This document shows, piece by piece, positions 41,196 to 64,000 of a stretch of DNA of 64,000 nucleotides (position 1 is the stretch's first letter; each line of letters opens with the position of its first letter). Origin of the DNA: Antedon bifida (taxonomy: Eukaryota; Echinodermata; Crinoidea; Comatulida; Antedonidae); the NCBI GenBank assembly GCA_963402885.1, contig OY727095.1, forward strand, positions 8,809,001 through 8,873,000, given 5' to 3'. The notes beneath the pieces were generated by a model. The model ran no database searches. It was not told where the DNA came from and saw only the letters and a list, made by a program, of their open reading frames with translations. The translations under genes and the position numbers were made by a program.

Positions 41196-41347
41196 TGTGG
41201 CAAAGTTTGATATTTTCAACTAAACGCTCTCATTGAGACACTGAAGAACTACTTATCAAGAAATATAACTTGAATTTGGATTAAAGATATTAGATTTATA
41301 CTTTGTTGTTACAATTACAATTACAATTTGTTTTGAATATATTGGCG

Positions 41348-43520
41348 ATGGCTTCTTATACATCTTACGGTGAGTGAATACAATTATTTAATTTTACTAT
41401 AGGCCTACTGAATAGTACTTGCATGCGTTTTGTTGACTTATTTGTAAGACTTAGGCCCTGGATAGCCTACTTATTATGTTTTCAGAAATTGTAATTTTAA
41501 TGTTATATTTAGGTTTGTTTTCTACTGTGTTATTATGTTTTGTAAAGGAGAAAACCAGAATTCTATTAAGCGTATAGACCTTCTTACCTTTATTTTTTTT
41601 ATTCTTTGTGTGATACCTATTTCACCCATTGGAATTTTCTTTTCTTTTTCAAAATGAACTTTTGATATTTTCAACACAGAATAAAGCGAAATCTGAACCG
41701 AAATGTATTGAAGAGTGGGGTTATATACACATTTTCTGATAATAATATAATGTTTGGCCAATAATTCCCCAATTACGTAAAATGCGGTCATTTCTTTACG
41801 CTTAGTTTACGACAACATTATTATTTAAAACATTTTTAATATTTTCAGTGATGCTATTGATTGGGTGGTATGTAATGACCGTTACAATGGGAACACCAAT
41901 CCCAACTATGGAAACTGCAGTGGTTACGAACATTGAAACTACAGCGGCGGACATTAACACTGCGGATACTAAAATTGTTAATATGTCAACACTTGTCGGA
42001 CTATTCAACAACATGATTGACGACATAGCCAAAGGCATCTTCCAAGTAAGTTGACAATCTTATAATAATACCACCTCATATTATATTTTAACAATGAAAA
42101 TAATCACTGTTGAATTATTGAGGTATATACAAGGTTGCTGTATGTTATATATTGATGAACACCAACCTCTCCTTTACCAAGACTGAACTCTGTTCTTGAT
42201 TTAATCAGGGTAATTTCACTCCCCCTTCCCCCCCCCCCCCCCCCCCCCCAATTTAACACTCACAAGGCATATGACCAATGGCTAAAGCTTGGTTCCCACT
42301 AGAGACGCAACGCAACGACGTAAGTGATTTGACCAATGACAATGGATGGATTATTCGTTGCTTGTCATTGGTCAACTCGCTTGGTTTGCGTCTACGTCCT
42401 TACGTTGCGTCCTCTAGTGGGAACCGAGCTTCAGGATGTTGTATTTGAGAAGTTTTGAATTTAATTATTACAAGACCCGTTAGACACGAATTGTATACAA
42501 ACGCTGTGTCATATTATGCGTTATAATTCTCGGCAACAATATTTTTTAAATTTTATAGTATTGAAAACTTATTTTATTTGTATTTGTTTGTATATTTTTT
42601 ATATTTTTATATTCACAGGATTCAAATGCTACAAACGAGTGTGATGAAACAGTTACTCTTCCTGATTGGTTTTCTACGGCCGAAAGAAATAATACGGTAA
42701 GATATTAAACCTAATTATTTATTTATTATTATTTCATTCACATTAAAAGCACTTTTCAATGACAAATTAGATCTGTTTTACCCACATCTACAAACCCGAA
42801 TTGATGCAGAATAGCTGGCCTATTCACGTTAATTGCTATATTTGAAAGGTTTGTGGAGACAACAACTGTTAAGTAATTCTCACTCCGTCATCCCATTAAT
42901 ATTATTCTGTTATATTAAAAATAACCAAACATTCGTTTTTAAATCTAGGTGAAACTTTTACAAGATATAATTGATGTGCTGGAGGAATATTATTGCCTAT
43001 TTAAATCTCTAAATGCGTCTCAAGAAGGCGTAGTCTTACCCGAGGTATATACGACTACGCTTGATACTATAGTGAATAGCACAGTTGAAGTCATAACCGA
43101 ATCTAAAAATGTAAGTTGAAAGCATTTTACACTTCAATTTGATATTAATATATTTATTTATGAATGAATATAAGCTGGTTGCAATATACCAAAACGAAGA
43201 TCTTTGTGTTTCTTTTTTATTTTTCAATTAAACTAATTATATTTGACAGAACAGAAATTTTGTGATCTTTTCTTTTCTGAATTATGTTATCCTGCCTAAA
43301 TATGTAAATAAATAAAAATAAAATAAATAAATAAACATTTATACATTTTTAGATATTGAATAACACAAGTGGTTTAACGTGTCAAGACGATGGATGGCAA
43401 TATATACCCGCGCAAGAACTGATGAGTATTGCATGTCGTGTATGGATATTACCTAATGCAGAGAGAAACCTCGGTAGAATCTCGGTTGTAATAGAAACAG
43501 ACGTAGGCCCAACTGCATAA
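41348..43520 (+). CDS. Secreted class I cytokine-like protein A, complete
   Basis: Five exons: 41348-41369, 41849-42045, 42619-42696, 42949-43110, 43353-43520, with intron phases 1, 0, 0, 0, giving 208 aa. Residues 1-22 form a signal peptide with a hydrophobic core (VMLLIGWYVMTV). Likely helix A ends exon 2 (residues 51-73, STLVGLFNNMIDDIAKGIFQ). Exon 3 is a short loop containing TVTLPDWF. Exon 4 has two amphipathic helices (VKLLQDIIDVLEEYYCLF and TLDTIVNSTVEVITES). Exon 5 has a loop and a C-terminal helix (QELMSIACRVWI). The mature part has four cysteines (81, 115, 163, 181), enough for two disulfides, and several N-glycosylation sequons (N52, N76, N97, N121 and others). I recognise no database family by sequence. 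Length, exon plan and helix order resemble IL-6/G-CSF/GH-type cytokines; the role as a ligand is inference. The gene model is more certain than the family. Confidence 0.8.
42228..42249 (+). repeat. Poly(C) run
   Basis: About 22 uninterrupted C in intron 2 of secreted-protein gene A; the length is likely to vary and to be hard to sequence. Confidence 0.85.
42283..42432. repeat. Fold-back family 2 element, well preserved
   Basis: An AAGCTTGGTTCCCACTAGA arm faces its complement CTAGTGGGAACCGAGCTT, with GACGCAACGCAACGACG and its complement inside and GACCAATGACAATGGATGG near the centre. It lies in intron 2 of secreted-protein gene A. Confidence 0.85.
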
Positions 43521-43997
43521 CTTTAGTGTATTTAACTAAAATAATGCTTTCTGTGAACAAATTGTGTGTGAGAAATGGCGCTTTTTAACGCGATATTAGG
43601 ATGTTTATTGTCGCTAAACATGATACCATTCGTGTATAATTTACATGGTGTAGGTCAGTTATACTTATGTCTGTACTAATTGAGCAAGAAATAAGTTTAA
43701 TATCTACTTGAACAACAATAGCTTTGCTAATATAAATTAGCCAACAAACAAGTTTTATTCCATTACGCCGCTTATTTCCATCTCGCTTGTGTAGTTAGGG
43801 TTTATTTATATATCGTGCAATTATATATTTATGTAGACAATCGCTTATGATTATTAATAACGAAGACATTACATGCAGCTGAATCTATATGTATAATAGA
43901 TTATTTTAGATACCTTGAGATTTATCTATTACAAGTATTTATTAATAGTATATTTAAAATAACGTCTATTACCAATATTTATTAGAATAAGCTTATT

Positions 43998-44165
43998 TAA
44001 GCTTGGTTCCCACTAGACGCAGCACAATGAGGTAGACGCAACGCAAGCGAGTTAAACAATGACTGTTCGAATAAATTCATCTCGTGTGATTGGCGAATCA
44101 CTTACGTGCGCTTTACTTACGTGCGTTTACGTCCTTGCATTGCGTCTCAAGTGGTAACCAAGCAT
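43998..44165. repeat. Fold-back family 2 element
   Basis: The same terminal arms (GCTTGGTTCCCACTAG and GTGGTAACCAAGCA) and CGCAACGCAAGCGAG inside. It follows gene A and may lie in its 3' UTR. Confidence 0.82.
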
Positions 44166-44704
44166 TATAGTCAGGAACGTATGCTTAACTTTTAACTTTT
44201 TGTATCTTGCTCATGATCAGTTCATATATTATATTTGCTATTTTGATAAGAAATTTAGATGAAAGAAATATATTTTAACAATAAAATGAATAAGAAAATG
44301 AAACATTTTTATTGTGCCCTATGTTATTTTTTTGGTTATTCCGATAATTACGTCGAAAACAAGAATGCCTAACTGCAGTTATCATCACCACGTTTTTGCT
44401 GAGTACAACTGATGATTATCAATGGGAAGGACACAGAGATGGAGTTTGGGTGAAATTTGGGGTGAGGTTGTTGACCCCGAATCACTCTCATAGATCATTG
44501 ATTGAAAACCAAGACACGTGGTCGTGTAGAATAGCATGTGTATGTTTTTCTCATCTGTCATCTCAGTTATGATCGTGAAAATATATTCATAAACATATTG
44601 CATCCATGGTTTTTGTAAAGAAATTGTTTCGATACGTAAAACCTCGTAGCATTCACACCCAATCGGTTTGGTACACCATTATGCATTACATATATTTTCC
44701 AACG

Positions 44705-44835
44705 TTAAGCTCTGTCTACATTATCAAACTTCATGCGACAAAAACATGTTATGTACCCATATATGGACAAGATGATGCCATATCACTACCATATCTGGGC
44801 ACATCACACTTTTTTGATAGTGTAGACAGAGATTT
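44705..44835. repeat. Fold-back MITE family 1, copy 12
   Basis: Both arms are present between genes A and B, bounded by TTAAGC and a GATTTA end. Confidence 0.83.
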
Positions 44836-45843
44836 ACTTTCTCGCATTCAGTTTGAATAATAGGCCCTGCCTTAATTAAGACACTAGAAACAAGTAGGCC
44901 TACCATTATTCAGCGTCTCTCTCACTATTGTGTTGTCGCTCAATCCATGCTGCCTCTAAGAGTCCATTTATTAATCCTCAATCCGTCCAGTGCGAAGCCT
45001 CATGTTCATTGACAATCTAAAAAAAAAAGAAAAAAGGAATCCATGTTAAATTTATTTCGAACAAGGATTGAACACGCCCAATAGTGCAATGATCTCTAAT
45101 ATTGCGTTCCCGAACCCAGTAGGGATATTGGTGAATCATCGGGAAAGAAGGCGTTTGATCGATTTACTTCTCCGATAAGGAATTTATGTGTACAATTGTT
45201 TACACTGTGCTGTATATTTCCTCCATGCACTGTGTGACACTGAATTAGGAATGGCTATTATAGAAAGGAAATTACACAGATAGGGCTACATGTCTATGAA
45301 AAGCAGTATTTCCTTGAAATATAACGAATGGCCTTATGGCAGAATTGTTGACATTTGATGGCATCTTTTTTGACAAGCAAAACATCATTAAAACTATTTC
45401 AAAGGTAATCATAAATAAACTGTCGATGGGCCATTGGGTATTATATATTTTCTTTAATTAATTAAGTGTGTGTACTGTAGAAGCACAAAAAGAAATCAAA
45501 GGGCGTAAGGAATAGACAATAAACACTATTGACTATCGAAGAGGTCGTCAATTACCGCGAAGTCAAATACCCGCGAAGTCAAACACCGTAATTACCCGCT
45601 TTGAATATATCCCTCTCCCTCCTCGAAAAAAAGAAAATTAACACATTTCTATATTTGTAGTAGTTCATTGACCTCCATCTACATTAATGTTTTACCAAGC
45701 GTGTTGATACAATTTTTTTTTCAGTTATTTATTGTGTTTTTTCGTATTTAAGAATTAATTTGACTATTCATGTTACCATATTACATTAAAAAAAATTAAA
45801 TTAAAATATATTGTCTTTCAGGCTTAAAAAACGATTAAAATAG

Positions 45844-46000
45844 TTAAGCTCTGTCTACACTATCAGTCTACACTAGTTTGACAAAAAAAAGTATGATGTT
45901 CTTAAATATGGTAGTGATATGCTTAAATATGGTAGTGATATGACATCATGTCCATATATGGGCGCATTACATAAAGTTTGATAATGTAGACATAGCTTTA
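45844..46000. repeat. Fold-back MITE family 1, copy 13
   Basis: A full-length copy with a small internal duplication of the arm (CAGTCTACACTA) near its left end. Confidence 0.83.
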
Positions 46001-46835
46001 GCAAATGGAAGACATTGTCTACTTAATTGAAGGAATCAACCCATCGGATTTTATATTTGTAAAATTAGAGGATGGGACTTCCCCATCCTCCTAATTATGA
46101 ATGAGGTGAAGTAAAACTGTTTAACATTTTCTAAAATGACGCAGCAAACATTGTATAACATTATGATATTTATTAAGCGGAAATCCGCTAGCAAACTAGC
46201 AAACATATAGTACTCTAGACATACCTGAACATTTTTATTTTCCCTTACTTTTTCTGGGATTAAGTAGTCTTCAATTATTTCATTTCCGTAACCACGCAAA
46301 CGATATCATATTGATTAAATTATAAAAGTGAAAATAGATAGATAGGTAGAGATAGATAGATAGATCGATAGATCGCCCTCATTGAATATAATTTATGCTG
46401 ATCTATGCCTATTTTGATTGTAAATAATAAACATCGATAAAAATGTTTTTTTCTTTTATAAAAAAAAATAATTTACAGTGTTCTAGAAGGAACACTTATT
46501 TCATATTTCGTTGTTATTTTTGTTTGTTTAAGGAAGAGTTTATTTTCATACCAGAAGATTGATTATTTAGTGGGCGTGTGGAACACTCAGATCGTTTACT
46601 TTCGAGGAATCTCCCTTTAATTTGTCACTTTGAAGGGTGGGAATTTTTCCATCAGGTAACACGCCGTAACATCCATCGTAAGCTTAGTTGTGGTTTTTGC
46701 CTGACGTTTAATTCCCCACGCTTCTTTTTTATTGTTGCCGATTAATATCTGGAATATTGATATAATAAACAAAACAATAAAAATACTTTATTTAAAAATG
46801 AACAGGAAGTACAATAGGCCTAGTCAATTTTGAAC

Positions 46836-47012
46836 CGAAAAAACATATGTTTTAAAGTCACATAAAATGTATTCACTTTGACCAAAAAATGGATCGAGAA
46901 AAAACATTTACCTAAAACAATGTAATTAAAATTGCAAAAATAGCATATTTAAAGTCTAATTTTATTAATCTTTATTTTTCATGTTTTTGGGGGATAATAC
47001 ATCTTTTAGATT
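46836..47012 (-). repeat. Fold-back MITE family 4, reversed partial copy
   Basis: TTTATTTTTCATGTTTTTGG followed by GGGATAATACATCTTTTA matches the left end of family 4 in reverse complement. Confidence 0.7.
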
Positions 47013-47075
47013 AATCTAGCAGAGTGACCATTCCTTTCGGTTCAAACTCGCTAATATTATTTGTTGCAGCCTCCC

Positions 47076-47264
47076 TAAAGATTGGTTCCCACTAGCGGCG
47101 CAACGTAACGCAATCTACGCAACCTAAGAAAATGCCCTTCCAATAATTGTGTTTGCCCCCGTCTGCGTGAAATCAAACCTTCGATTTTTGCAGCACTGAT
47201 TACGCAAAACATATATTTGCGTCAATACGTCACTGCGTTGCGTTCTAGTGGGAACCACGCTTTA
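47076..47264. repeat. Fold-back family 2 element, long variant
   Basis: Arms TTGGTTCCCACTAG and TCTAGTGGGAACCACGCTTT enclose repeated CGCAACGTAACGCAA words. The inner region matches the copy at 53613. Confidence 0.82.
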
Positions 47265-47347
47265 GACCTTGGTTTCCACTTGGACGCGACGTAAGTAAAT
47301 TGACCAATCACGACACGATGGATGGTTCGGACTATCGCTTGTCAGAA
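47265..47347. repeat. Fold-back family 2, left half
   Basis: It directly follows the previous copy. CTTGGTTTCCACTTGGACGC and the central GACCAATCACGAC are present; the right arm is absent. Confidence 0.65.
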
Positions 47348-47856
47348 TACCAAAATTGGTATCGTGGATAATGGAACGTCCGCACACGTGCTAATCCCTT
47401 GGTCGATAATCACAGGATAGATGGCCTTAATCTATTCAATGATGAGGATTAATTAGATTGTTGAAGTGATTCTATATTGTATTATCCTATACAAAGATAT
47501 ATTGTTAATCTGTTCTGGAAGCAATCCATTTGCAATTGGACGGAAGCACAAAACCAAACCCTATTTGATGCCGGTATAAATAGCGCATCAATCATACCAA
47601 AAAAGGAAACAATTCTTTAACTAATTTCTATATTTCTATGAACATCTTAATTTCATTCTTATTGTTTCTGTAATCAAATGTATATTATCCATTTGTTTTA
47701 TAAATGTAGAGGAATAGTCCGCTTATCAATACAGAAATAACAACAATGTATATAATGTTTTAACGAAAGAGAGAAATTGATTAATGACCCTATGCTTAAA
47801 ATAGTGGATAAAACCAACAAATATCTATGAGTAACTTTCATGCAATTTGAATATCA

Positions 47857-47935
47857 TGATGATAGCTCAAATGGTAGAAATATCAAGCAGAAGATTCCGA
47901 GTTCCAGTCTCGGTCGTGGTGGACTTGTTATCAAC
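47857..47935 (+). repeat. tRNA-like SINE head
   Basis: GATAGCTCAAATGGTAGA resembles a tRNA D-arm/A box and CGAGTTCCAGTCTCGG a T-arm. It cannot fold into a full tRNA by eye. Confidence 0.45.
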
Positions 47936-48191
47936 TTGAAATACGGAATTTATATGTTTTGTTCCTGTATTTCGTTGATATATTGAACGAATATAATGAA
48001 AAAAAGATAAATCTTAATAATAAATAAAGTTGATCACCGTACTGATGAATGAATACGATGACGATAATGATGATGATGACAGATACAGATGATGATGATT
48101 ATTATGATGCCGTAATTGACCGAGGAAAAGAAGGAATTGTTGTCGACACAAACAAATACTATGAATAATATTATATTATTGTTATCAAGTG

Positions 48192-48415
48192 AAGTGGGTG
48201 CCCCAGCGGTTAAGACAGTGGAACCATAATATCTAGCCATAAAATCAGCAAGGGTTCTGGGCTCACTTGCTACATGATTCTGGCGGTACGGTAGAACGAG
48301 ACTTCTTAGATAAGAACTATAAACCGTAGGACCTAGTACATCTTTGAGACGTGTAGGGGGTTACCCCGGAGTACTATTATACACACAGCCACTGTCACAC
48401 ACTCATCGTAAAGTA
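48192..48415 (+). repeat. tRNA-derived SINE A, internal deletion
   Basis: CCCAGCGGTTAAGACAGTGG starts it, and GGGGGTTACCCCGGAGTAC is retained; the CCAGTGTACACATC segment is missing. Confidence 0.8.
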
Positions 48416-49445
48416 CGTAAACCATGGAAAACATATTTTCAAAGTATACTTATAATTCTGCAACCTGGTAGATGGGTAAGATTGACACAATGTATAACCA
48501 ACTTATACTTATAATGAAATTGTAGACCTAAATTATAAAGTGTCTCATCATGTAAAGCACGGGAAAATAACTTTGAAAGCCCTACATGATTCAAAATATA
48601 ATACTTTATAATTGAACAACTGGTAAGACTGTATAAGGCTTACTAAATAAAATAGCAATAGCAATAATATAGCCATTCAATAAAAGTAACGGCCCACAGG
48701 AGTATTATACGAGTGATAATCTTTGCCTGCTTATTTCACTTAAGGTAAGCACCACCCACTTAAGGTAAGGAGGAAGAACGGCTATACCTGAAAGTGCCTC
48801 ATCATACGTACATCACGGGAATTTTGTTGAAAGCCCTGCACATTCAAAATATACTTTTATTACTACCAATTAGGCCTAATGTTATTCATAATTTTAATAA
48901 CAAATAAAATAAAACAAAATTTGTAATAATTTAAAATTGTGTTTCATTGGTACTTGTCCCTTACTCCCACGGTTTAAACCTCAATCTCAAAATGAAACAA
49001 GTTAATGAATAAGGCACTATACAAAAAAAAAAAAAAATTAAAAAAAAAAAATCAAGTAGGCCTAACTCTTAAACATTTTCTTGGAAAACTTTTAAAAAAT
49101 GAAACTTAAAAAAACAATTGATATTATTGTGCTTTTAGATACCAACAAAATTCATTAAAGGTCAAAACTTTTCCTTCTCGAATCGAATCCTTCTCTAAAA
49201 ATAGATTTTGCGTCACGTCGGCCCGGCTTTGACAATGATTTCTAATAATAATTTATAATAGCATTCAATTGTAAATCCTCTCAAAAACAAATAAAAGCAA
49301 CAGTTTAAACCAATGCATCCATCATTTCTGAGTTTTTCATCTACATAAATAAACTAAAATTGTTAATAGGACCAACAAGCAAACATTTACTCACCGACTT
49401 ACCAATATTTTCGATTCTTCACATTTAAAGCCGTATTTTGCTATA

Positions 49446-52400
49446 ATGATGGTTATTAATATATTTGGTAAGTTATTTTTTAATTATTTAAGATATAATT
49501 ATATACGATAAATTGACGGCAATTTTATCGTTGTTTTCAAGATGTTGGATAATGTATTTTTACTGCGACGCTTCTATGGCAACGCATTATTTTTACTGCG
49601 GTACAAATTGATTGGTTGATTTTACTGCAACGCCTATTCGATTGCATGCGCGATGTATTTTACCGAGGCATGTATAGGCCTACTTTTTTTTGTACTACTG
49701 CGATGCTTTTTCGAACACCCGATTCCCATACCGTATTATGTCTAGATACATAGACAGCACGTGCAGTTTCTTGTCTCCTTACTACAAACTGTTCTCCCAC
49801 TATCACAGCTCATGGATATTAACGATACGATATATTAAGGTGTATCCGAATTTTTTATTTGGAATGGTACTATAGTCCTAAGCGTATTTCATTTGTAAAC
49901 ATGACCCATTTACACTTTCTGTGATACGCAATGATTTATTTTAATCAATTTAAAAACTGTATATTTGGTAATTATTTCTAAATTAAAGCAATATTTCATA
50001 ATGTATAATAATGCAAATAAACAATAATTACATGGTAGCGAACTATACCAGATTTAATAAACTAATTTAGCCATAACATTACAATTATCCGACTTTTCAT
50101 GATAGTAAATGTAGAAAATTGCGACATTAAATAAACTAGATATGTTATCTATTTTTATACCGGTACTATAATAATAAGCCAGGGAAGAGTGAATAAGCAC
50201 GGCAACCATGTGATTTGTTTATACGTGCAGTAAGCAGCATTTAAGTAGGCCTAGGTGATACATCCAAACGGATGTGTACAGTAGATTTATTTGTAGACTT
50301 CCGAGATTATTCAATTCATGTTTCTTGCATTATATTGATATTTTCTGTAATAGTTTATCTTTATATAAATCCAAAATTAAGAAATATTTTAAGTTGGTTA
50401 ATTTGTTTGTTTTATTCGATACTCAAACAAGACACCACGAGGATAACCCATAGCTGAAACAGCTTGTTTCCAATAGGATCCTTATAAAGTTACAAACAAA
50501 TTATTACAACAAAGTTCACATTGTGTTTTGTTCTTGTCATGTTTTTCTTGTCATGCTCTTCTTGTTGTCTCGTATTGCTATATGTATTCCAATGTGTAAG
50601 TGGTGGGCTCCCCGAGTGTGAATTGAAATTTTAAAAAATAATAATCATTTTACGCTTATCTTTCAGGATCACTGTTTATACTGGTGTGCTTCAAAACATC
50701 TGTGTCATTAGCAGGGACAATACATCACACATCCCTCATTGAGAAAATCACGGAATTACAGAGGTCCTGCAGTGCATTTGTTAACGAATACGTAAGTGAT
50801 TTGTCCACAATTATAATTATTTCATATTTAGTGAATGTTCTATCTCAACAACATTATCATCCCCATCTCTATCTTCAACATTCTCGATGTTATCATCTTA
50901 CCATCCTCCTCCTCAACACCACCAGTAACACCACTATCAACACCACTATTAACATCAACATCAACATCATCATGATTTAAACTCATCAACACAATCCTCA
51001 TCAATATTATTATCCTCATCTCTATCTTTAACATTCTCAATGTTACCATCTTATCATCCTCCGCCTCAACAGTAACACCACAATCAATATCATTATCATC
51101 ATGATTTAAACTCATCAGCAAAATCTTCATCAACATTTTCATCTTCATCTCTATCTTTAACATTCGCAATGTTAACATCTTACCAGTATCATCAACAACA
51201 TCATCGCACCATCAGCATTATCATCATCATTCATGGTTATCATCATCCTTATCCTTATTATCATATTTCAAAAAAGACAACGATTGATAAGCCTACCGAA
51301 GCATTATTAGAATTCTTCTACAATGAAAACGATTACGGTAACTAATGACGTAAATGTTCTTTCGGATGTTTTTCCTATTCATACTATTGTTCTTTTTGTT
51401 GTATGGTATTATTACAATAAAAATAACTAACTTATTTACTTAACTTAGGCCTACTATCACTTTCATTTTAATATGATAAAAGGACTTTTATTCTGAAAAT
51501 TGTTTTAATAATTAGTACATACTCACATTATTTTTTATATTTTTTAATATCATAAACAAACTACGGTGTATGTCTAGCATGGTGTAATTTTTGTATTAGT
51601 ATTGTATCTGATATGATGTTTTTAATGTTTTTCTGTTTAATATTTTTTACTTATTAACTTTTTTTTTTTATACAGAATCGGACACGTTTCCGTAGACGAC
51701 ACTTCAACACCGACGATATTAACATTACAGTACCTCATCTTGCGTTTGAAGATGCCCGTAATGCAAGGGTTAGTATTAGTACTGAAATAATGCTATCCAT
51801 TATTCACATAATTTACTTATTGTTACCATTATATTAAGCCTTGTCTACACTATCAAACTTTATGTGACAAAAAAGGACATGATGATGTCATATCACTACC
51901 ATATTTGGGCACATCACACTTTTTTTGATAGTGTAGACAGAGGTGTAGATATAGCTTTAGGCCTACTATGGCTGACAACAGGATAGACATAAAGGGATGG
52001 GGACCGGATGTCCTGGATCCTGCCTGCGGGATTTCTATCCGGACACCGGTGATCCATAAAAATCGTTATAATACTATAACATGTAATTCATATGGCACTA
52101 TAGGAATTCACAAAGAATATTTTCCACATGATTAACGTTTTACGTCGATCAACAATGACTGTTCTCTGCAGTATTTAACCATGGAACAATTCACACTTTA
52201 GTACAATATCGAATTATAGACCCTTTATAGTTCGTTGTATTGTATCGGGTACTGTAATTCAGTCTTATATCCACCGTCAATGAATTTCATAGAAACCAAC
52301 AGGTGTAACAAAGATTAGATCATTTTGTAGGCATTTTTCTTATATTTTAGTCGCTCTTACCTTGTAAGGTTGATTATTACGATGAACAATCTTACTCTAT

Positions 52401-53324
52401 TACGTGCTTAGTAAACATATGCAACACTGATGAAATATATTCCGTTCAGTTTGATTTACTATATTTTTTTTTAATCGTCAGGAAGTGGACTTGTTATTAA
52501 CATACGTAACTGATCTCGGTATATTCCGCACTGTCTTTCAAGAAGTAAAGGCGAACGAAGCCCGATTATATAGCCAATCTCTTAGAAACTTCAGCAATGA
52601 ATTTCAGGAAGTATCTGATTTGATGACGACCATTATTGATAAAATGTCAAATATTGTAAGTAAAATTTGATTGTTAAATTGTCGTTTTAGGCCTACTAAC
52701 TTATGTCCGTGTTACACCAGTGCATACACAGCTCCGTCACGATTCTATGCGATTCATTCCACCTCTATCCAAACAGCATTTTCCACATTTTCGGTCTTTT
52801 AAAACATCTAAACAGGGAAGCGTCACTCTTACCTGATTTAAATAAACAAATCGAATATTACTGATTTTTTTCCCTCGCTTCATGATAATAGTTATTACTC
52901 TCACTCGCAACTATGTCAAAACCGGACATGGAACTATCTACTAGTTCTATTTGGTCAATTAACACTTAAAAACACAAACACATCTCAGCTACCTGATTAA
53001 ACCCATATTTTTGTTAAGCATGTTTGGGCGCGCGTCAGTGATTTACAAAAATTACATAATTCACAAAATATGCATTTAGTAACAGCACAGCTACTTAACA
53101 TTAAATAAATGTAATAACATAATTTTTTCTTGCAGATAAACCATAGAAATCAAAACGCAGTATTAATAAGAAACGCTACGACAGTTGATTATACTAACAA
53201 GACTAGAAAGGCCGATCTAAATGACTATGCAATGGAACTTCTATTGACTACAACACACTATGTCATTGACGTTGATTTCCACGTAACTGCACTCTATATG
53301 CCTACAACAACATCACAAGGGTAA
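49446..53324 (+). CDS. Secreted class I cytokine-like protein B, complete
   Basis: Five exons: 49446-49467, 50667-50791, 51676-51768, 52482-52655, 53136-53324, with phases 1, 0, 0, 0, giving 200 aa. Residues 1-23 are a clear signal peptide (INIFGSLFILVCF core). Helix A is residues 30-49 (SLIEKITELQRSCSAFVNEY) and ends exactly at the exon border. Exon 3 is a basic loop (RFRRR) leading to NITVPHLAFEDARNAR, which matches TVTLPDWFSTAERNNT of the neighbouring gene A in layout. Exon 4 holds two long helices (LLLTYVTDLGIFRTVFQEV and FSNEFQEVSDLMTTIIDKM). Exon 5 is a loop with NAT and NKT sequons, then a C-terminal helix (DYAMELLLTTTHYVIDV). Only Cys42 remains in the mature part, so the disulfide pattern differs from A. 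It is a paralogue of A and C by gene structure, on the same strand. The ligand function is inferred. Confidence 0.8.
49550..49690 (+). repeat. Irregular TTTACTGCGACGC repeat in gene B intron 1
   Basis: TTTTTACTGCGACGC and variants occur four or five times at uneven spacing. The origin is unknown. Confidence 0.5.
50850..51240 (+). repeat. CAT/ATC-rich imperfect tandem repeat
   Basis: Two to three units of about 150 bp (CATCATGATTTAAACTCATC, CTCATCTCTATCTTTAACATT) lie in intron 2 of secreted-protein gene B. The minus-strand open frame across it is repeat-derived. Confidence 0.8.
51834..51959. repeat. Fold-back MITE family 1, copy 14
   Basis: It lies in intron 3 of secreted-protein gene B. Left and right arms are present and the inner part is shortened. 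Confidence 0.82.
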
Positions 53325-53612
53325 TACTTTTTGAGTGTGCAATGCGTTGTATTTTACGCAAATGCGTCAATTAAGTAATCAAGCTCGTCAATGTAGTATG
53401 TAAACGCGTCACTGTGTAGTGCGCAAATAGTTCAAAGCACCAATGTGGTATAGTGTATGCATTACTGTAGTAAACAAGCGTTTAGATAAGGTGAGGTTAA
53501 TACGAGCACACGTTTACGCAGTGCGCAAGCGCGTCATTTGTACGTACTTAGCCCGTGTCACAGTTTGGCAGTAGGCCTACGTACGCGTCTTGCTTTAGAG
53601 CAAGAACAATGC

Positions 53613-53835
53613 TTAAGCTTGGTTCCCACTAGTGACGCAACGTAACGCAACCTACGCAACGTAAGAAAATGCCCTTTCGATAATTGTGTTTTGCCCCGCT
53701 TGCGTGAAATCAAACATGCGATGTTTGCAACACTATTTCGTCGTCGGTTCTCACTTGTGATTACGCAATATAGAACTTTGCGTCAAAACGTCGCTGCGTT
53801 GCGTTACGTTGCGTCGCTAGTGGTAATCACGCTTT
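53613..53835. repeat. Fold-back family 2 element, long variant
   Basis: A full copy with CTTGGTTCCCACTAGTGACG on the left and GTCGCTAGTGGTAATCACGC on the right. It has the same GCCCCGCTTGCGTGAAATC core as the copy at 47076. Confidence 0.83.
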
Positions 53836-53935
53836 ATTGCACCCACTGGAGTAATCATCACCGGGATATCTATCGTATATCATGATTAATGAATGTTTAT
53901 TATAAACGCTACACGTATAACCGTAATGTAATGAC

Positions 53936-54088
53936 AACAGTAGAACTGCTACTAAGAAGACACTTTCGGCACCAAACAAACTGTCCTCTCAATAAGGTTT
54001 TCATTTGTTAGTTTCATTTTAAAGTGCCACCATTAATAGGGGTGTCATTTGAATAGGGGTGTCCCGAAAGAAGTCGTTCTACTGTTTA
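53936..54088. repeat. Pogo/Tigger-like MITE
   Basis: CAGTAGAACTGC and GACACTTTCGG on the left face AGGGGTGTCCCGAAAG and GTTCTACTG on the right. Confidence 0.72.
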
Positions 54089-54582
54089 GCTTATTAGGAA
54101 GATATCCCGGTGCATTTACGAAAGGGTATTTACGAATTTACCTAGACTGTAAGTAGAAATTAGATGCAATTAATTATTATATTTATAAAAAATATTGATG
54201 CAATTTCTTATTGATAAAAAGGTGGATAGTTGTTGCTATGCAACTGTAAATAACGTTTGTCAAAACTTATTCCATTCCAAATATGTATTTTTATCACTTT
54301 AATCGGTTCTAAACTAAACAGTATTATTTTAAAGTATTTAATTATATAAAACATATTTATTAAAAGCGAAATCAATGAAAATTTAGAAAACTTAATTGTT
54401 AATTTTTGGAAAATGGTATCCATTTTTTGTGTGAAATGTTCGACACTCCGATCAACATTAAATTATATTGGGATACTGTGTATCCACTAAACAATAATAG
54501 TGGTTAAAATCAGTTACGTATTATTTTTAAAGAAAATGTTATGATAAAAAAAAATTAAATTATATCTGTAATTGGTATTAAA

Positions 54583-54908
54583 GATGTATTGTCCCCTAAA
54601 AACATGAAAAATAAAGATGAATTTAATCAGACTTTAAATAGGTTATTTTGTAGCTTTAATATATTTAGTCAGAAACAATGTTTTCACCTATAGGCCTAAA
54701 ATAACAAAATGGGTAAATTCAACCAAAAAGCCATTGGCTGGCAGCCAATTTAACTATTTTTTGCTTTAAATTGCATTTTTTTCAGGTAACTATTTTTTAA
54801 AATCCAATTTTTGGTCAAAGTGGTTAACTATTATGTGACATAAAAATGGCACAATTAACCAAACATTTTTTAAGAATTATTGTTTCAGGGGGACAATACA
54901 TCTTTAAA
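54583..54908 (+). repeat. Fold-back MITE family 4, about 325 bp
   Basis: TTAAAGATGTATTGTCCCC at the left and GGGGGACAATACATCTTTAA at the right are inverted ends. CATGAAAAATAAAGATGA follows the left end. Confidence 0.85.
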
Positions 54909-55321
54909 AATGTTTTAGTAATGAATGATATAACTTGAACATAGGGTTGTTTATCATCAGCACTGGAGGGTGGACATACCGTATGATACAGGCGTCACTT
55001 TATAGAAAAATATCCTCAAAGAAACTTTGATTTTAAACTTTATCTAGAAAAACATGCTTAGTCTTTATTTTGAAATACGCTTAAGATGAATAACATTGTA
55101 TAATATTATATATAAACTTATTTAATTTAACTTTACAGTCAATTGTGTTAATAATTAATGCATTTTACGTTAAAGGACAAAAACTCGAATAGTTGTATTT
55201 GTTAATGTTAAGTTTTATATTAAACTATCATGTTAAGAGAGTGACAACAAGTACATGTGATACATGTGTGACATGTATTACATCATTTGCCTTGATACAG
55301 GGCGACGATACTTTACTTACG

Positions 55322-55497
55322 TTTCCCATGTGTACCCGGTTAGATCAAGACACAACTTTTCGCTGATTACTAGCTGCATTATTGGAGTATGTTTCCATAC
55401 GTGTTTGATCCACAAAAAATGACTGGGGTAATAATGTTCATCGCTTAGAAACATTGTGCAATAAGCGCTATGTAAGAACGAATATTATTATTATTAT
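55322..55497 (+). repeat. SINE B, 5' shortened
   Basis: GATCAAGACACAACTTTTCG, GATTACTAGCTGCATTA, ATGACTGGGGTAATAATG and ATT repeats match the copy at 14695. Confidence 0.8.
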
Positions 55498-55760
55498 CCT
55501 TAGTAGCGATATTTGGGAATTAAGACATTTGGATATGTTTGTATACTGTAATTCTCATTTTAAAATGCTATCTGTGCAATAAAGTTTGGTATTGGGTTTT
55601 ATAAATATGTTGTTTTATTTCGTATGTTGTGATGGATGAAGATGTTGTCACGTAGATCTCAAATATACTATATATTGTGACGAGGCGGTGTTTATTTTAA
55701 TCAAATGATATTAATTTCCATTCAAACTAGGACTACGAAATGGAATGGAAAATGGAAATA

Positions 55761-55804
55761 TTTTTTGTCACATAAAGTTTGATAGTGTAGGCCTAGACAG
55801 AGCT
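55761..55804. repeat. Fold-back MITE family 1, copy 15 (right arm)
   Basis: A solitary right arm, TCACATAAAGTTTGATAGTG, followed by a GACAGAGCT end interrupted by GGCCTA. Confidence 0.7.
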
Positions 55805-56059
55805 GTACAAACATATATATATAAAAAGAAAGTCACTATATTTATGTTGTCTATTTGGTTATTTTTTAATGGGCCTATTTGCCAGTGATCTTTGTCATGA
55901 TGAGATGACACTTTTTATATAGCCATCAGTAATAACATACGTGTATTGTAATAATAAAAATAATGGGTGTGTTAACGTGTCTACGTAAACCGTATATCTT
56001 ATGAGGCGCCATTTGAAACATTATTGCAGTATTTATTTCAACAATATTTTATGAGGGTG

Positions 56060-56870
56060 GTCCATCCAGCATCAGCTGATCATTAGGGACCCTCAAACAA
56101 TACAAACAGAAAATACAAAATAAACTATAAAAACACAAAATTAACAAAGATTTAAAAAATAAATATATATATATATATAAAAATACAGAATGCCAACAAT
56201 GAAAGAATTGGATAAAAAGAAATAAAATCAGAGAATGAGAAACAGGTGTTTTTTCAAAAGAGATTTAAAGGAGGAAAAATTGTAAGAGTTACGAATGCTT
56301 AAAGGTAGAGAATTAAAGAAAGAAGGAGCATTGAAACTAAAAGAAAGTTTAAAGATTTCAAGGTAAGAACGAGGGATAAGAAGATCTCCTTTAGTAATTT
56401 GCCTAGTGTTCATACGGCCGTTGGAAGTTACTTTAGTTAAAAGCTGACAGATAGTAAGTGGAGCAGAGTGATGTAGAGCTTTGAAAGATAGACAAGCAAG
56501 CTGAAAAAGGTATCGTTCATGGAAGGGGAGAGTCTTAACACTGGAAAAGTGATGAGGAGAGAGATGTGTAGTGGGAGATAGATCGAGTAGAAGACGAATA
56601 GCTTTATTCTGGATTTTTTTTAAGTTTAGTGGTAGAAGAACGTTTAGAACCCCAGACAGAGCAGCAGTAGTCAAGTCTAGAAAGGAAAAGTGAATTGTAC
56701 AGAAGATGAAGAGAAGATTTGTTTGTAAATTTAGAGGTACGTTTGAGTAAGTAGATAATAGAATTGAGTTTTTTACAGAGGGAAGATATGTGAGATCGCC
56801 AGGTTAGAGTATTGTCAATTATGATTCCAAGGTGTTTGTGAGAAGTAACAGATTGTATTGACAGTTATAC
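56060..56870 (-). mobile_element. CR1/L2-type LINE, 3' part of ORF2
   Basis: On the minus strand, SHKHLGIIIDNTLTWRSHI, SRLDYCCSVWGS and IQNKAIRLLLDLSP are followed by LACLSFKALHHSAPLTI, SFNAPSFFNSLPLSIRN and LLKKHLF. This is the region from the end of the RT domain to the ORF2 stop. The part upstream of 56675 continues in another frame, so it is a broken copy. There is an AT-rich tail at about 56100-56200. Confidence 0.85.
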
Positions 56871-56939
56871 ACCACAGTAATTCGTGACAATATAGTACAG
56901 TCTGAACAGCACAGTGGATATAGCTGTGTCACCCATCAC

Positions 56940-57110
56940 CAATCGCGTCGTGGTTGATCAAATTATTTGCGTGATTTGTTCTCATACCAGGACGCAACGC
57001 AAACACGTAAGCGCAGTGCAAGCGAGTAGTTTCTCATGATCCATCGCTTGTGATGGGTCGCGTTGCATTTACGTCTTTGCATTGCGTCAGTGAGAAGGTG
57101 TAGGGTTGAA
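56940..57110. repeat. Fold-back family 2, diverged copy
   Basis: It contains GACGCAACGCAAACACGTAAG and the complementary GCATTGCGTC on the right, but its terminal arms have drifted. A further small fragment lies at about 57917-57945. Confidence 0.6.
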
Positions 57111-57124
57111 TTTTAACACTTACT

Positions 57125-57535
57125 AGAAGATCCTGACACATATCGACTATTATATATAACCTCCATTGGCTACCTATTGACTCCCGTATAAAATATCAGA
57201 TCCTTTTACTACTTCTTAAACAACCTCTTATTTTCTTGATATTCTTCCCTCCTACACCCATCTTGCTTGTCTTCGTTCGGCTGATCAAAACCTACTGGTT
57301 GTGCCTAGAATAAACACTAAATCCTATGGACAAAGGTATTTTGTGTTCTCTGCTGCTTCTCAGTGGAATTCTCTCCCTCGACATATTACTAAATCAACAT
57401 CTATTGCTATATTTAAAAAAGAACATCTCTTTAACATCTAATACAAGCGCCTTTGATTTTTACTTCGGTTTAGTTGATACTGGCGCTATACAAATACCTA
57501 CATTATTATTACTATTAATTCGTGGCTGCGTTTAG
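57125..57535 (+). mobile_element. CR1/L2-type LINE C-terminal remnant, plus strand
   Basis: LHWLPIDSRIKYQILLLL near the start, a VPRINTKSYGQR string and SQWNSLPRHITKSTS with FKKEHLF near the end are LINE C-terminal hallmarks, in more than one frame. ATT repeats follow. It lies about 300 bp from the LINE at 56060 and in opposite orientation. Confidence 0.8.
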
Positions 57536-58024
57536 TTCAGATAGTATTTTAAAATGAGAAAGTAGAAAGTTCTAAAACTGCGCCCCGTAGTCAACAATTC
57601 CCTGAATCCGGAATAGGGTGATTCCTTCCTTCCTTTCATCTAGTTCTTAAAATTGCACGTCAAAGCATGGACAACAAGGTCAATGTAAAAATATACACGG
57701 CAATATTTTGTTCAACAACCACAATAGTACAGCAATTAAATAAAAATAAATAAAAACCTATAAAAATACCGTAATACATGATATATGACGTCATAATATA
57801 TTATACTCCCTGTCTAGTCAATGGCTTAAAAAAATAAGGACATGGTTACATGACTTGTTTTTTCATTTGTAGGTTAAATGTGTAAACATAAATGTATTTA
57901 TAAATCCCTTTCACTTAAGCCGGGTTTCCACGTGGACGCAAGGCATCATTACTACATTTATTTATAGGCTTATTCTATTTTTTTTTAAATAACAATAATA
58001 AAGAATACACACTAGGCCAACATT

Positions 58025-58113
58025 TTAAGGTCTGCCCACACTATCAAACTAGTTTATGGTGGTCATATTATTCCCAAATACGGTAGTGATATGACATCAT
58101 CATGTCAATATGT
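58025..58113. repeat. Fold-back MITE family 1, copy 16 (left half)
   Basis: A diverged left arm and the GGTAGTGATATGACATCATC inner motif are present; the right arm is absent. Confidence 0.7.
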
Positions 58114-58635
58114 ATATATTTTATTCTTTATTTATTCACCAAATATAGCACATTTATTTTATTTATTTATTTATTCGTCATAAAAAACATCACAGCAACC
58201 CAGCGGGCAAACCTGTGATTTACAAAACAAACATAAAAAACAACGAGGAAAAATAAAAGCAAACAAACAACCAAAAGTACATAATTAAAACGAATTTAGG
58301 TTCAATGATTTTCCCAAAATAGGGGTATTTTCCAATCGTGGTATACACTTTCTAATGAACGCCTATGGAATGTTCCATTCATCGCAAATCAATACATTTG
58401 TATAAACGTATATTACATCTATCAAAATAGTATTTTTTTAAAAGAAAATCGGCATGTCTTTAACATTATGATGCTGTACTCGAGCTATTCAACCGGTTTT
58501 CAGCTATTAAAAACATCGTAGAATGCGAAGCATCCTCGTATTATTATGTGCGGTTATTTTTCAAGATGGACATCCATTAGACAGTGTATACCACGAATGT
58601 TGATGAATGAATGATGAATTCATTAACAGTGTCTT

Positions 58636-58945
58636 AAAGATGTATTTTCTCTCACCCCACCCACAAAACATGAAAAATGAAGATTAATTAAATCAGACTT
58701 TGAATAGGTTACGTTGTAGTTTTAATAAAGTTGACCCCTTTAAAAAAAATAAAACAAAAAGTTTTTTTTTTATATAAAATGACAAAATAAATGGTCAAAT
58801 TCAACCTGGAAGCCAATTTAACTTCTTTTTTTTTGCTTTCAATTACAGATTTTTTCAGGTAAATTTTTTTTTTCGATTCAATTTTGTTTCAATTTTGTTT
58901 ACGATGCAGCCGTATTTCGAAAATAAGGAGATAATGCATGTTTAT
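58636..58945 (+). repeat. Fold-back MITE family 4, diverged copy
   Basis: It starts TAAAGATGTATTTTCTC and shares the ACATGAAAAATGAAGATTAA and CCAATTTAACT blocks with the copy at 54583. Confidence 0.7.
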
Positions 58946-59047
58946 CTCGGAAGTGGGGGAGGATTGAGTGTTTTTGAGTTTATAAAATAAAGAGTTCAAA
59001 CAAATTTGTGTATTCGTACTGTTTTATTATTTTGCTGTGATTTGCTC

Positions 59048-59204
59048 ACCGGAATAGTTGGGGTGGGTTACTATTTTCAAGTGCCTAATTTAAGATTAGT
59101 AATAGTAACCCCCCCCCCCCCACCTTCTAATAGTAATCCACCCAAAAAAACAATCAAAGAATAATAACCCATGGTTACAATTAGAATATTTACGGTATCT
59201 TAAT
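59048..59204 (-). repeat. Fold-back MITE family 3 (TACCGTAAAT ends)
   Basis: Repeated GGTTACTATTA-type words end in TACCGTAAATATTCTAAT on the minus strand. It includes a C run. It is in opposite orientation to the copy at 61670. Confidence 0.75.
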
Positions 59205-59473
59205 GTTGGCTGTTTAGGCTTGCGGGACAGCCGTGAATGGTCTTCCTCCTCCAGAAACAACAACAAGGATATGTATAAAAATCCTTGGAAAAATAAAAGA
59301 AAAATGCGCATTGATGAAAAATGAAATTTGTAGATAAACCACAACCAACAAGGAATTCAAATATGAACAACAAAGGAATGTCAAAAGTAACGAAGTTTAC
59401 CTAAATAAATTCCAACTTATGACACATTTGATATTAAACGGATCCGGATAACGATCCGGCTAGTAATTTTAGA

Positions 59474-59745
59474 TTTGGCCGCACATCTTGTAGCCGTGGG
59501 AATAGGCGATGTAGTTATTTGGCCGCACATCTTGTAGCCGTGGGAATAGGCGATGTAGTTATTTGGCCGCACATCTTGTAGCCGTGGGGATAGGCGATGT
59601 AGTTATTTGGCCGCACATCTTGTAGCCGTGGGGATAGGCGATGTAGTTATTTGGCCGCACATCTTGTAGCCGTGGGGATAGGCGATGTATTTATTTGGCC
59701 GCACATCTTGTAGCCGTGGGGATAGGCGATATAGCCATGGGAATA
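59474..59745 (+). repeat. 44-bp tandem repeat, six copies
   Basis: Units begin TTTGGCCGCACATCTTG at 59474, 59518, 59562, 59606, 59650 and 59694, nearly identical, with GGGAATAGG/GGGGATAGG variants. The spacing is exactly 44 bp. Confidence 0.93.
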
Positions 59746-61431
59746 GGCGATGTAGTTATATTGGATATAAATTCATATTGGATACTGATATTAAGCAACA
59801 GTGGTAAATAGATCTGCTGGTAAAATATCACCATGGCCTATCTAACCGTTTATATCACTCAAATCAGTCAATGTAACTTTGGCTTATTGTTCATTTGTAG
59901 GCCGTTGCCAATATACAGTAATCTTCCTAAACACTATCTGCTATTTTTGATACTTACAATATTATATGTATTCATCTATTCCATTGTTTGTAAACCTCTA
60001 ATGAAACTTTGTATTTATTCAGTATTATTATTCAACTTCTGTTTTCAATAATAGTCAATATAATTAAATTAATTTTTATTATTATCATTAGGCCTACTGT
60101 AAATAATCACTGTATATTTTTATATTTAATATTTTTTTGTAAAAATCACTGTAAATACACGTTATTATGGTTACCATTATAATACCAAAAAAATGTACGA
60201 TTGATTGAATTAAGTTCACATATACATATAAATGATGATACGTGCTACTACGTTCCAAGTAAATAGGCCACACTTAGGGCTAAAAATTCGTAACGAAAGC
60301 AACACATAACATTCATAAACTGATTTGATGGTCTAGGCTGGGCTGAAAAAAAAAAGATGATAGCGTGATTTCGATTTCAGTGTGTGCATTGTAAACAGAA
60401 ACCCGTGCTGTTATAATTCTGGAAACTAAAAACGGTCGAAAAGCATTTCATATGAAATCTTGATTAAATTAGATTAACTGATAAACCTCGATTAACAAAG
60501 AATTTATAGATATATTAAAAGAAAATTTTATCGCAATTCTCCAAATTGAAATTGAAAATGAGATAACAATAAAATAAAAAAAAATTGAAAAAAATAATTA
60601 ATTATTTCATTATTTGTATTTTTCATTATCAAAATGTAATAATAAAGGATAAAACAATTACAAAAACATAATATGCATAATGTAGGAAAAACCAATGCAT
60701 TTATCCATATTAAAATGGATATGAAAGATTTTTAAAATATCAAAAAATTATTTTGTATGAATTTAGTATGACTATATGGCAAGCTTAAAACTGATTCATT
60801 TACACGTTGAGCCAATGAAATGATATTGCTAGGAACTCTTTCATATCCATTTTAAGACATTCATTACCGTTCATCATATATTAGGCTACGCCTATGTTTC
60901 ACTAGAAAATACGATTTGTTTTTGTTTACACATTTAGGAGCAGAAATCAATCACGCTATCCGCCTTACTAAAAACAAACAAACAAACACACAACAACAAC
61001 AAATAAGAACGTAATAGGTTCATGACAGTATTAATTTCATACAAGGTATTTTGAATACGTTCGCAAATGACGTAATAGGGAAATACCCTAATGGCTTTAA
61101 CAAAGCTTACTTCGAAAATATTATAGAGGGCAGTTTACCTTAAATTAATTTCCGAGAAAACGACTACAATCCCTTTGCAGTATGTAAACACACATTCGTT
61201 ACTAGGATAAATATCATGCCTATGGCGATCTAATCTATATTTATAATGTATATATACTTAGTTGATTTTAGTACACTAAACAAACACAGAGAATACAATA
61301 TTTTAAGATCGATTCAAGTTAACTGAATTCTGAGTAGGTTAGGAAAAGGAGGGGACATTGTCTTTTTCGGTTTTACACCTTAAATCACTTATTTTTAGCG
61401 CATTACTATTTGTTTCTATATTGCTACTAGG

Positions 61432-61441
61432 TATATATAAA
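61432..61441 (+). promoter_or_regulatory. TATA box of the third secreted-protein gene
   Basis: TATATATAAA followed by GGC lies about 120 bp before the first ATG, close to the spacing seen at gene A. Confidence 0.5.
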
Positions 61442-61550
61442 GGCACATCTGACAATGTTTCGTTATACATTCAAACACCGACAGAAACATTGGTTAAGCA
61501 ACATTGTTGACAAAATTAATTTGAAACTGTAAGGAAAATTGTGAATAAAA

Positions 61551-63948
61551 ATGGATGAGAGAAGAATGGTTTACAGTTTTTTGATCGGTAAGTTTCCAAT
61601 ACAATTTTAATAATTTTACAGACTTAAGCTTGATTTTATTTGCTAATGAGCAGAATCTGTAGTTATAAATACCGTAAATCTTCTAATTGTAACCCTGGGT
61701 TATTATTATTTAATTGTTTTTTAGGATGGATTACTATTAGAAGGGGGGTTACTATTAGAGTAGTGGGTTACTATTACTAATCTTAAATTAGGCACCTGAA
61801 AATAGTAACCCACCCCCAGTGGGTTATTATTATAGATTGACTTATAAGGTGGGTTACTAATAGAAGGGGGGTTACTATTAGAGTGTGGGTTACTATTAGA
61901 AGATTTACGGTATTGATCTCCTATTTCATTTGATCTTGGCTATTTTTTTTTTCATATACTTTCACATGCCAAATTTCTTGCCCGTTTTTTATCGAAGGTC
62001 TCATCATAAACTTATTATTTTATTTGATACGCATCATCCAACAGCAATAAACGCGCCGATGGATGGATATAAAGCTATAATATAATATATGTATTTTTTT
62101 TGTCTTATGTGGGTTCATCCCACTTTTATTTCCATCATATACATTTTCATATAAATACTGTATATTAATTTATACACATTTCTTCTAACTAATGTGTTTT
62201 TACATACATGGTTTTTGTTGTAATCTTTTCTCTATTCATTATCATTATTTACCATAATTGTCTCTTATAATTTATACATATCATCTTTTAATGTATTTCT
62301 TTTTTTTCTTTTAAGTTTAACATAACATATAATATATTTATTACTATATTAATTTAACTTACTGTCCAGCTTAAAGAAAGTTAAGTCTCACTTTAGGCTG
62401 AGGGCTAGTGGTAGAGAGTGCCATGGATAAGAGGCGCTAGGTCAGGATTACCCCCTGGACCTTGACATTGGAAGGCAATCAATTTAACCACCAACCAAAA
62501 GCACCACGATATTTCGTATAGACTACCACATCAAAACATTTCATAATCAATTGATACGATATCGTTAATTTATCAAGGGCAAGAGAATACTGTGTATGCC
62601 TATTTAATAGATAACAACAAAATAATAATCATAGTCTAACAATATTCAATACTTCGTCAGTTGAAATGATTTAACTCATCAGTTTTACAATAGTAGATTA
62701 TAATGAGGCTAACATTTACAAATGTTTCAACATTTTGTTTAATAGATAAACAATGAGTATAGTATTTATTCAAATAAATAAATTCATAAAAATAACGAAC
62801 GAACCTAATTTTATTAACTAAAATGTTGCATACCCAAATACAGACAGGCTGTCTGAAAAATGGTTACCTGTATATCGACCAGGGCTTCAAAAGGGCTTAA
62901 GATAGGATTTAATATATGAATCCATTTCCAGTGAGTAAAGAGGCGCACGGCAGTTTAGCAGCGGGATATTCAGACAATTTACACTACAGTACTTACCATC
63001 AGTAAATTAAATCTCAGATGCGCTATTATTATTATTCGTTATATTAAAGCACCCAAATCCATAGAAACGAGGTCAGAATTTTAAAATAGGAAATTAGAAT
63101 TGTGAAATTGAGTGCTAAACCTATCTTTAGTATGTGTTCTTTCGAGGGCTCCTGTAGTTAACTTTCACAAATTATACTTGACCGACGTATTTCACGAGTT
63201 AGTCGATAACCCAACCGTTACGATTTTATAGTGTAGGCCTAATTGAAATTAACACCGACGAAACCATGTGATATTGAAATGATTTCATTTTAAATTATAT
63301 TATTTATCTGCAACTATAACGAATTTATAATTATATTTTCTTTGATTTAGCCTTGTGTGTTTTACACGTTACGTCAGCAACGCCTGTTCCAACATCGATG
63401 CCGCAAAATGACATCGTTATACAACAACACGATAAGTTGGTTGAAGAAACAGTGACCTTGAATAAGATTGAGAAAGGCACCCTTGACAGTTATGTAAGTA
63501 ATGCGTCAGAGGTGTTAGGGTGGGAGGCAGTTTGGGTTGGGGTGGGGGCGGATTGTGGGTAAGGAGTTGAGGAGGGGTTAGGGAGTTATGGAGGTGTTAG
63601 TGAGTTGAGGAGGGGTTAGGGAGTTTGGGAGGGGTTATGCAGTTGGGGAGAGGTTAGGCAGTTGGAGAGCTGGCACACACGAAAGCCCTCATAATTTACC
63701 ATTGTTCAGCCTACATCATAATTGTATTCTGATATCTCGCCTGGCATTTCATAAGATCTTTATTAGCGTAGATCTAAATTGAATGGCAATTTAAAAAAGA
63801 GGGGATAGGTAATGATTCTTTAACAATGCGTTTTATATTTTGATTATAGAGAGTAGAACGATTTGGGGATCCTGACGCAACAGCCAAAAACATAATCATA
63901 TCTGGACTACCAAGCCAACTGACACTACAAATACGACTTGAAGCTACG
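61551..63948 (+). CDS. Secreted class I cytokine-like protein C (3' end off window)
   Basis: Three exons are visible: 61551-61587, 63351-63493 and 63850-63948, with phases 1, 0, 0; the two helical 3' exons should follow beyond the window. There are two in-frame ATGs in exon 1. The second (61566) leaves exactly 22 nt before the donor, as in genes A and B, and may be the true start. The signal peptide is MVYSFLIALCVLHVTSA. Helix A (DIVIQQHDKLVEETVTLNKI to LDSY) ends at the exon border with Tyr, as in gene B. Exon 3 reads RVERFGDPD, then NIIISGLPSQLTLQIRLEAT, in the place of the A-B loop. The FGDPD following the helix-A tyrosine recalls the start of the A-B loop in CLCF1 (FNEPDF); this is an eye alignment only. 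Confidence 0.72.
61670..61916 (+). repeat. Fold-back MITE family 3, full copy
   Basis: Left TACCGTAAATCTTCTAAT and right ATTAGAAGATTTACGGTA are perfect inverted ends. The middle has GGGGGGTTACTATTAGAG repeated. It sits in intron 1 of secreted-protein gene C. Confidence 0.85.
62020..62510. repeat. Dispersed repeat C, second copy, interrupted
   Basis: GCATCATCCAACAGCAA near 62027 and GCTAGGTCAGGATTACCCCC near 62437 match the copy at 7130 but are separated by about 300 bp of AT-rich sequence, suggesting a later insertion. It lies in gene C intron 1; the rest of that intron to 63350 shows nothing I recognise. Confidence 0.55.
63530..63670 (+). repeat. G-rich tandem repeat in gene C intron 2
   Basis: GAGGAGGGGTTAGGGAGTT-type units repeat at about 30 bp. 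The G runs could form quadruplexes on the plus strand. Confidence 0.75.
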
Positions 63949-64000
63949 GTAAAAACGATTTTATTATCACAATGAATCATACCACCTCCCCAATGCGTTG

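Follow-up and report, generated by a model that had tools for sequence, protein, structure and literature searches.

Tandem genes for candidate class I helical cytokine-like proteins in the crinoid Antedon bifida

Three genes, here called A, B and C, lie in tandem on the forward strand of a 64-kb stretch of the genome of the crinoid Antedon bifida (contig OY727095.1, positions 8,809,001 to 8,873,000). This whole stretch, referred to below as the window, is AT-rich animal DNA with a guanine-cytosine (GC) content of 0.32. The genes run from 41.3 kb to the window end, which cuts C after its first three exons, and the two complete genes code for proteins of 208 (A) and 200 (B) amino acids. All visible introns are of the GT-AG type, with phases 1-0-0-0 in A and B and 1-0-0 in C. 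The coding exons measure 22/197/78/162/168 nucleotides (nt) in A, 22/125/93/174/189 nt in B and 37/143/99 nt in C (Table 1), and a hydrophobic stretch opens all three proteins, as judged by hydropathy. An earlier note on this DNA had described three same-strand genes with this exon order and these phases, and with signal peptides and products of about 200 residues in the complete cases; exon reading and hydropathy bear these observations out, and on the evidence of the sequence the three tandem genes are real.

Table 1. Exons of genes A, B and C and elements upstream of them, in window positions; P values refer to the amphipathic moment
Feature	Position	Strand	Remarks
A, 12-base word GATTCAAGTTAA	41075-41086	+	113 nt before TATA-like box of A
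A, TATA-like box	41188-41197	+	160 nt 5' of ATG
A, exon 1	41348-41369	+	start codon, phase-1 donor
A, exon 2	41849-42045	+	remaining signal peptide, TPIPT, predicted helix A (P 0.004)
A, exon 3	42619-42696	+	candidate A-B loop, LP motif
A, exon 4	42949-43110	+	two helices, candidate B and C (P 0.004; AlphaFold2 on exon alone)
A, exon 5	43353-43520	+	stop; candidate helix D, less certain (P 0.13)
B, exon 1	49446-49467	+	phase-1 donor
B, exon 2	50667-50791	+	remaining signal peptide, predicted helix A (P 0.027)
B, exon 3	51676-51768	+	candidate A-B loop, VP motif
B, exon 4	52482-52655	+	long helical segment, candidate helices B and C (P 0.010; AlphaFold2 on exon alone)
B, exon 5	53136-53324	+	stop; candidate helix D (P 0.94)
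C, 12-base word GATTCAAGTTAA	61311-61322	+	121 nt before TATA-like box of C
C, TATA-like box	61432-61441	+	119 nt 5' of ATG
C, exon 1	61551-61587	+	phase-1 donor
C, exon 2	63351-63493	+	remaining signal peptide, TPVPT, candidate helix A (P 0.46)
C, exon 3	63850-63948	+	candidate loop, LP motif; gene expected to run past window

Both strands of the window were scanned for chains made up of a first exon with ATG and a phase-1 intron, a hydrophobic N-terminus and three phase-0 introns, subject to set limits on size. At the main settings, A and B were the sole non-overlapping chains (scores 29.1 and 31.3), with no further gene of the 1-0-0-0 plan in the window, and a chain appeared in none of 200 null windows generated by an order-3 Markov model (one strand each). 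The scan thresholds had been loosened after A and B were seen, so as to let both in; an earlier, stricter scan had returned zero chains from the real window and zero from 60 null windows. When the settings were relaxed, chains turned up in 12 of 200 null windows (best score 23.5) and in 96 of 200 (best score 28.2), all of them scoring lower than A and B. Four chains that were added in the real window at the loosest setting were set aside, as null windows reach their scores of 13.3 to 16.9 and one chain takes in an exon of the Syntaxin-18 gene (STX18) described below.

Codon usage was scored as log-odds after training on 584 codons, drawn from seven pieces of STX18 and four minus-strand open frames; one of the STX18 pieces is weak (E 0.63), two of the four open frames are without Pfam support, and an eighth STX18 match, which contains a stop, was excluded. 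The predicted frame scored best in all three genes (A 0.06, B 0.03, C 0.21), with values of -0.15 to -0.37 for the other two frames and one reverse frame. GC content is 0.39 in exons and 0.30 in introns for A, 0.38 and 0.32 for B, and 0.42 and 0.33 for C. Given the null scans and the codon signal, it is unlikely that the exons are spurious.

Amphipathicity was assessed as the best 18-residue moment of seven segments relative to shuffles, and four of the seven rose above their shuffles, namely exons 2 and 4 of both A and B (Table 1). AlphaFold2 was run on exon 4 of A and of B singly, without an alignment or neighbouring exons. For A, it predicted a helix of 23 residues (positions 2-24) and another of 22 (positions 32-53) joined by a 7-residue loop, with a mean predicted local distance difference test (pLDDT) score of 77.8. 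This model fits a hairpin of helices B and C, and its helix lengths are close to those of long-chain cytokine helices.

The genes for GH, PRL, EPO, G-CSF and IL-6 have five exons with phases 1-0-0-0, and their exons divide the protein into helix A, the A-B loop, helices B and C, and helix D. Human coding exon lengths are 19/191/114/147/168 nt for IL-6, 13/146/87/180/156 nt for EPO and 10/161/120/165/198 nt for GH1; by these lengths, A comes near IL-6 and B near EPO. Like vertebrate IL-6, G-CSF, EPO, GH and PRL, the complete proteins are about 200 residues long and have a hydrophobic N-terminus, five exons in the 1-0-0-0 plan and a helical exon 4. A, B and C have no detectable sequence match to that group. 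In IL-6, Trp157 is described as a hot spot of site III (PMC7378365), whereas B has no Trp at all and A has one at residue 168, in exon 5.

Class I helical cytokines have also been described in an invertebrate. The GH-like protein (GHl) of amphioxus is, by its published description, a class I helical cytokine of 208 residues, the length of A, with low identity to vertebrate cytokines and several related genes (PMC9010856). The Unpaired (Upd) proteins of Drosophila offer a parallel of another kind, being described as ligands of Domeless, a gp130-like invertebrate receptor (PMC13203501, PMC7378365). Genes of the IL-10 family are reported to consist of five exons with no codon split by an intron, a plan also given for IL3 and IL21, and human IFNL2 and IFNL3 to carry an additional exon at the start, with a phase-1 intron after it and phase-0 introns from there on, six exons in all (PMC2654155). 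IL-10 and interferon-lambda genes thus resemble A and B in being helical and multi-exon, with phase-0 introns beyond the first exons; A and B differ from the former in their phase-1 first intron and from IFNL2 and IFNL3 in having five exons.

The exon plan and the order of the helices make a class I cytokine-like protein the best reading of these genes, and we hold with moderate confidence that A, B and C most likely encode long-chain class I four-helix cytokine-like proteins. Their products would leave the cell by the signal-peptide route and fold into an up-up-down-down bundle, to which exon 2 would contribute helix A, exon 3 the A-B loop, exon 4 helices B and C, and exon 5 helix D. The faces of this bundle could then bind and join receptor chains of the gp130/IL6R-like or CRLF3-like type, and such joining may lead to JAK/STAT signalling; the responding cells would probably be those of immunity or tissue repair. 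What we infer in this proposal is the fold, the relatedness of A, B and C, and the identity of receptor, pathway and tissue.

The three genes are most likely strongly diverged tandem paralogues for small secreted glycoproteins. From residue 23 onwards, A carries seven N-glycosylation sequons where 2.8 are expected (P 0.009), and from the same residue there are four cysteines in A, one in B and none in C. A and C have in common, at the end of the signal, the stretch L-I-x(3)-V-x(2)-V-T-x(2)-T-P-x-P-T (P 0.003), and BLASTP aligned the two with E 0.003 and 0.007 in a three-sequence comparison; past the signal and TPxPT stretch, their likeness is not significant (P 0.24). A and B resemble each other over exons 3 and 4 (P 0.013), where the LP/VP motif is aligned and the exon 3/4 borders lie at most one residue apart. 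The common exon plan, the short match between A and C and the match between A and B over exons 3 and 4 together suggest that A, B and C form one family.

A number of observations weigh against the cytokine interpretation. A phase-1 intron near the signal peptide is common among secreted proteins generally. Sequons in B number five from residue 23 where 2.6 are expected (P 0.09), and C has none in the 71 residues after position 22. In exon comparisons between genes, two of ten gave P <0.05 and eight were not significant, and looser scans offer an alternative exon 5 for A at 44914-45012 that scores 30.0, as against 29.1 for the chain given here. A search of Pfam up to E 10 found no cytokine family (HMMER filters drop most matches above about 0.1) and gave weak unrelated matches only, the best being IFT20 for B (E 0.016). 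Searching the PDB by sequence likewise found no cytokine for A, for B or for a profile of A, B and C: B and the profile matched nothing, and A gave four weak matches to unrelated structures (best E 0.24). A missing sequence-profile match is not defining, because divergent true cytokines can also miss. One study describes helical cytokines as hard to detect by sequence and uses the exon plan as added evidence, and it also warns that recognising them by exon plan brings many false positives (PMC2654155).

The helices assigned by the earlier note fared unevenly. In A and B, the moments of exons 2 and 4 (P 0.004 to 0.027) and the exon-4 folds support helical content; in exon 2 of C, the moment was not significant (P 0.46). 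Two helices on exon 4 were predicted for A but not for B, whose exon gave a single 56-residue helix (positions 2-57, mean pLDDT 92.3) with no hairpin; at face value this model speaks against a hairpin in B, though an isolated segment has no packing partner. The last helix, placed on exon 5, is weak, with moments that are not significant in either gene (A, P 0.13; B, P 0.94) and with prolines within the candidate helix region of A. The wider proposal of helical cytokine ligands is partly supported.

Perhaps, instead, A, B and C encode other secreted helical glycoproteins, either fast-evolving reproductive or mucosal proteins or lineage-specific effectors, whose exon plan came to look like that of cytokines by convergence. 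The lack of any Pfam or PDB family match for A and B would suit such proteins, as would the absence of a clear amphipathic helix from exon 5, and families of this kind, too, typically consist of secreted genes that lie in tandem and diverge quickly. Yet phases, exon sizes and helix order match jointly in two separate genes, and exon 4 of A is modelled as two helices; we regard this explanation as somewhat unlikely.

We consider it quite improbable that the exons are real but partly misjoined, or that the three genes do not form a single family, with the cytokine look arising from unrelated short exons. The alternative last exon of A points in that direction, as do the pairwise exon comparisons, since one of the two that reached P <0.05 is carried by the signal-peptide stretch; against this stand the absence of chains from the 200 null windows at the main settings, the frame-specific codon signal in all three genes, and the occurrence of one plan on one strand three times.

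Class II (interferon/IL-10-like) cytokines whose genes gained one short exon at the start, for which the phase-1 and then phase-0 introns of IFNL2 and IFNL3 provide a precedent and the class II exception (PMC2654155), are very unlikely, and are not preferred here because a codon is split at intron 1 in A, B and C, where the IL-10 family is described as having no intron-split codon and teleost type I interferon genes as having four phase-0 introns (PMC4929537), and because A and B follow a plan of five exons and not six.

In the upstream regions, TATA-like boxes precede A and C (Table 1), and B has a loose TATA-like box only, 156 nt 5' of its ATG; the + strand of the window contains 87 matches to the pattern TATAWAWR. 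The 12-base word GATTCAAGTTAA has two copies in the entire window, both upstream, one of A and one of C, and a common word of at least 12 bases is found in 1.6% of random pairs of 200-nt stretches. Common upstream words are at most 8 bases long for A and B and at most 9 for B and C, like random pairs (mean 8.1). An 8-base core, CAAGTTAA, has four + strand copies, one at 10899 and one each 5' of A, of B (at 48998) and of C, and a single copy on the - strand. It is possible that GATTCAAGTTAA with its core CAAGTTAA is a control element common to the three genes, a pattern that was spotted post hoc. Patterns for STAT, kB, AP-1, the interferon-stimulated response element (ISRE) half and C/EBP were sought within 1 kb of the TATA-like boxes, and none of them was found upstream of all three genes. 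GATA and Ets patterns are upstream of all three, yet both are frequent, with window-wide densities of 3.3 and 1.8 per kb. In the 780 nt 3' of the stop, ATTTA occurs 10 times in A and not at all in B (window mean 4.2, standard deviation 2.7), and AU-rich 3' ends were rejected as a common sign of these genes on that account. Between genes B and C there is a 44-bp tandem repeat of 6 copies (59473-59734).

Elsewhere in the window, a minus-strand gene near its start has an exon (8488-8601) that matches positions 33-67 of the Pfam profile PF08700 (Vps51/EXO84/COG1 N-terminal) with E 3e-12, and a preceding exon within 8970-9308 that matches positions 1-33 with E 0.065, under the curated cut-off. We take this gene, with its Vps51-type N-terminal domain, to be VPS51; open frames at 3712-4065 and 1404-1721, without Pfam support, presumably resemble later parts of VPS51, and the gene perhaps extends down to 1404. 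STX18 lies on the + strand at 10133-17894 (PF10496, E 1e-8), and a tblastn search with the human STX18 protein gave 81% identity over 31 residues in the last exon and 49% in the first, the latter value hinting at a non-vertebrate genome. The VPS51-like gene (8488-9308) and STX18 are thus head to head, with about 0.8 kb between them.

The window also holds a 23-bp tandem repeat of about 45 copies (22485-23509), in which three minus-strand frames are open, and which is not evidence of a gene. A dispersed repeat was seen by eye in five places (42290-42430, 44000-44160, 47080-47270, 53615-53840 and 56975-57095), all five with 'cgcaacg' words and the first four with 'ttggttcccact'; self-comparison of the window pairs its third and fourth copies at 73% identity, and the repeat looks like a small DNA transposon. 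A minus-strand open frame at 56228-56803, without support from Pfam, presumably resembles the C-terminal end of a long interspersed nuclear element (LINE) reverse transcriptase. Neither RNA families nor tRNAs were found in the window.

Receptors of the IL6R/gp130 type are reported in Strongylocentrotus, Saccoglossus and Ciona by a recent study which states that IL-6-like ligands were not found in most invertebrates (PMC13203501, 2026). That search is described as relying on BLAST with a minimum identity of 30%, and genes such as A, B and C would probably escape it. An earlier paper speaks of no apparent cytokine receptor signalling system in the sea urchin (PMC3296744), the endogenous ligand of CRLF3 has been called unknown (PMC6797617), and a review gives class I cytokines as present in amphioxus but undetected in both acorn worms and sea squirts (PMC9010856). 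A partial literature search returned no report of a comparable cluster, which is weak evidence of absence.

It is tempting to speculate that a tandem cluster of class I four-helix cytokine ligands is seen here for the first time outside the chordates, perhaps in an ambulacrarian, and that A, B and C supply the missing ligands for gp130/IL6R-like receptors or CRLF3, a proposal that we offer tentatively, as possible rather than probable. If it is true, the five-exon 1-0-0-0 plan of GH, EPO and IL-6 would be older than the chordates. Concrete candidate ligands in an invertebrate would make the origin of class I cytokines directly testable, and the present case suggests that the exon plan may find cytokine genes where sequence search fails.

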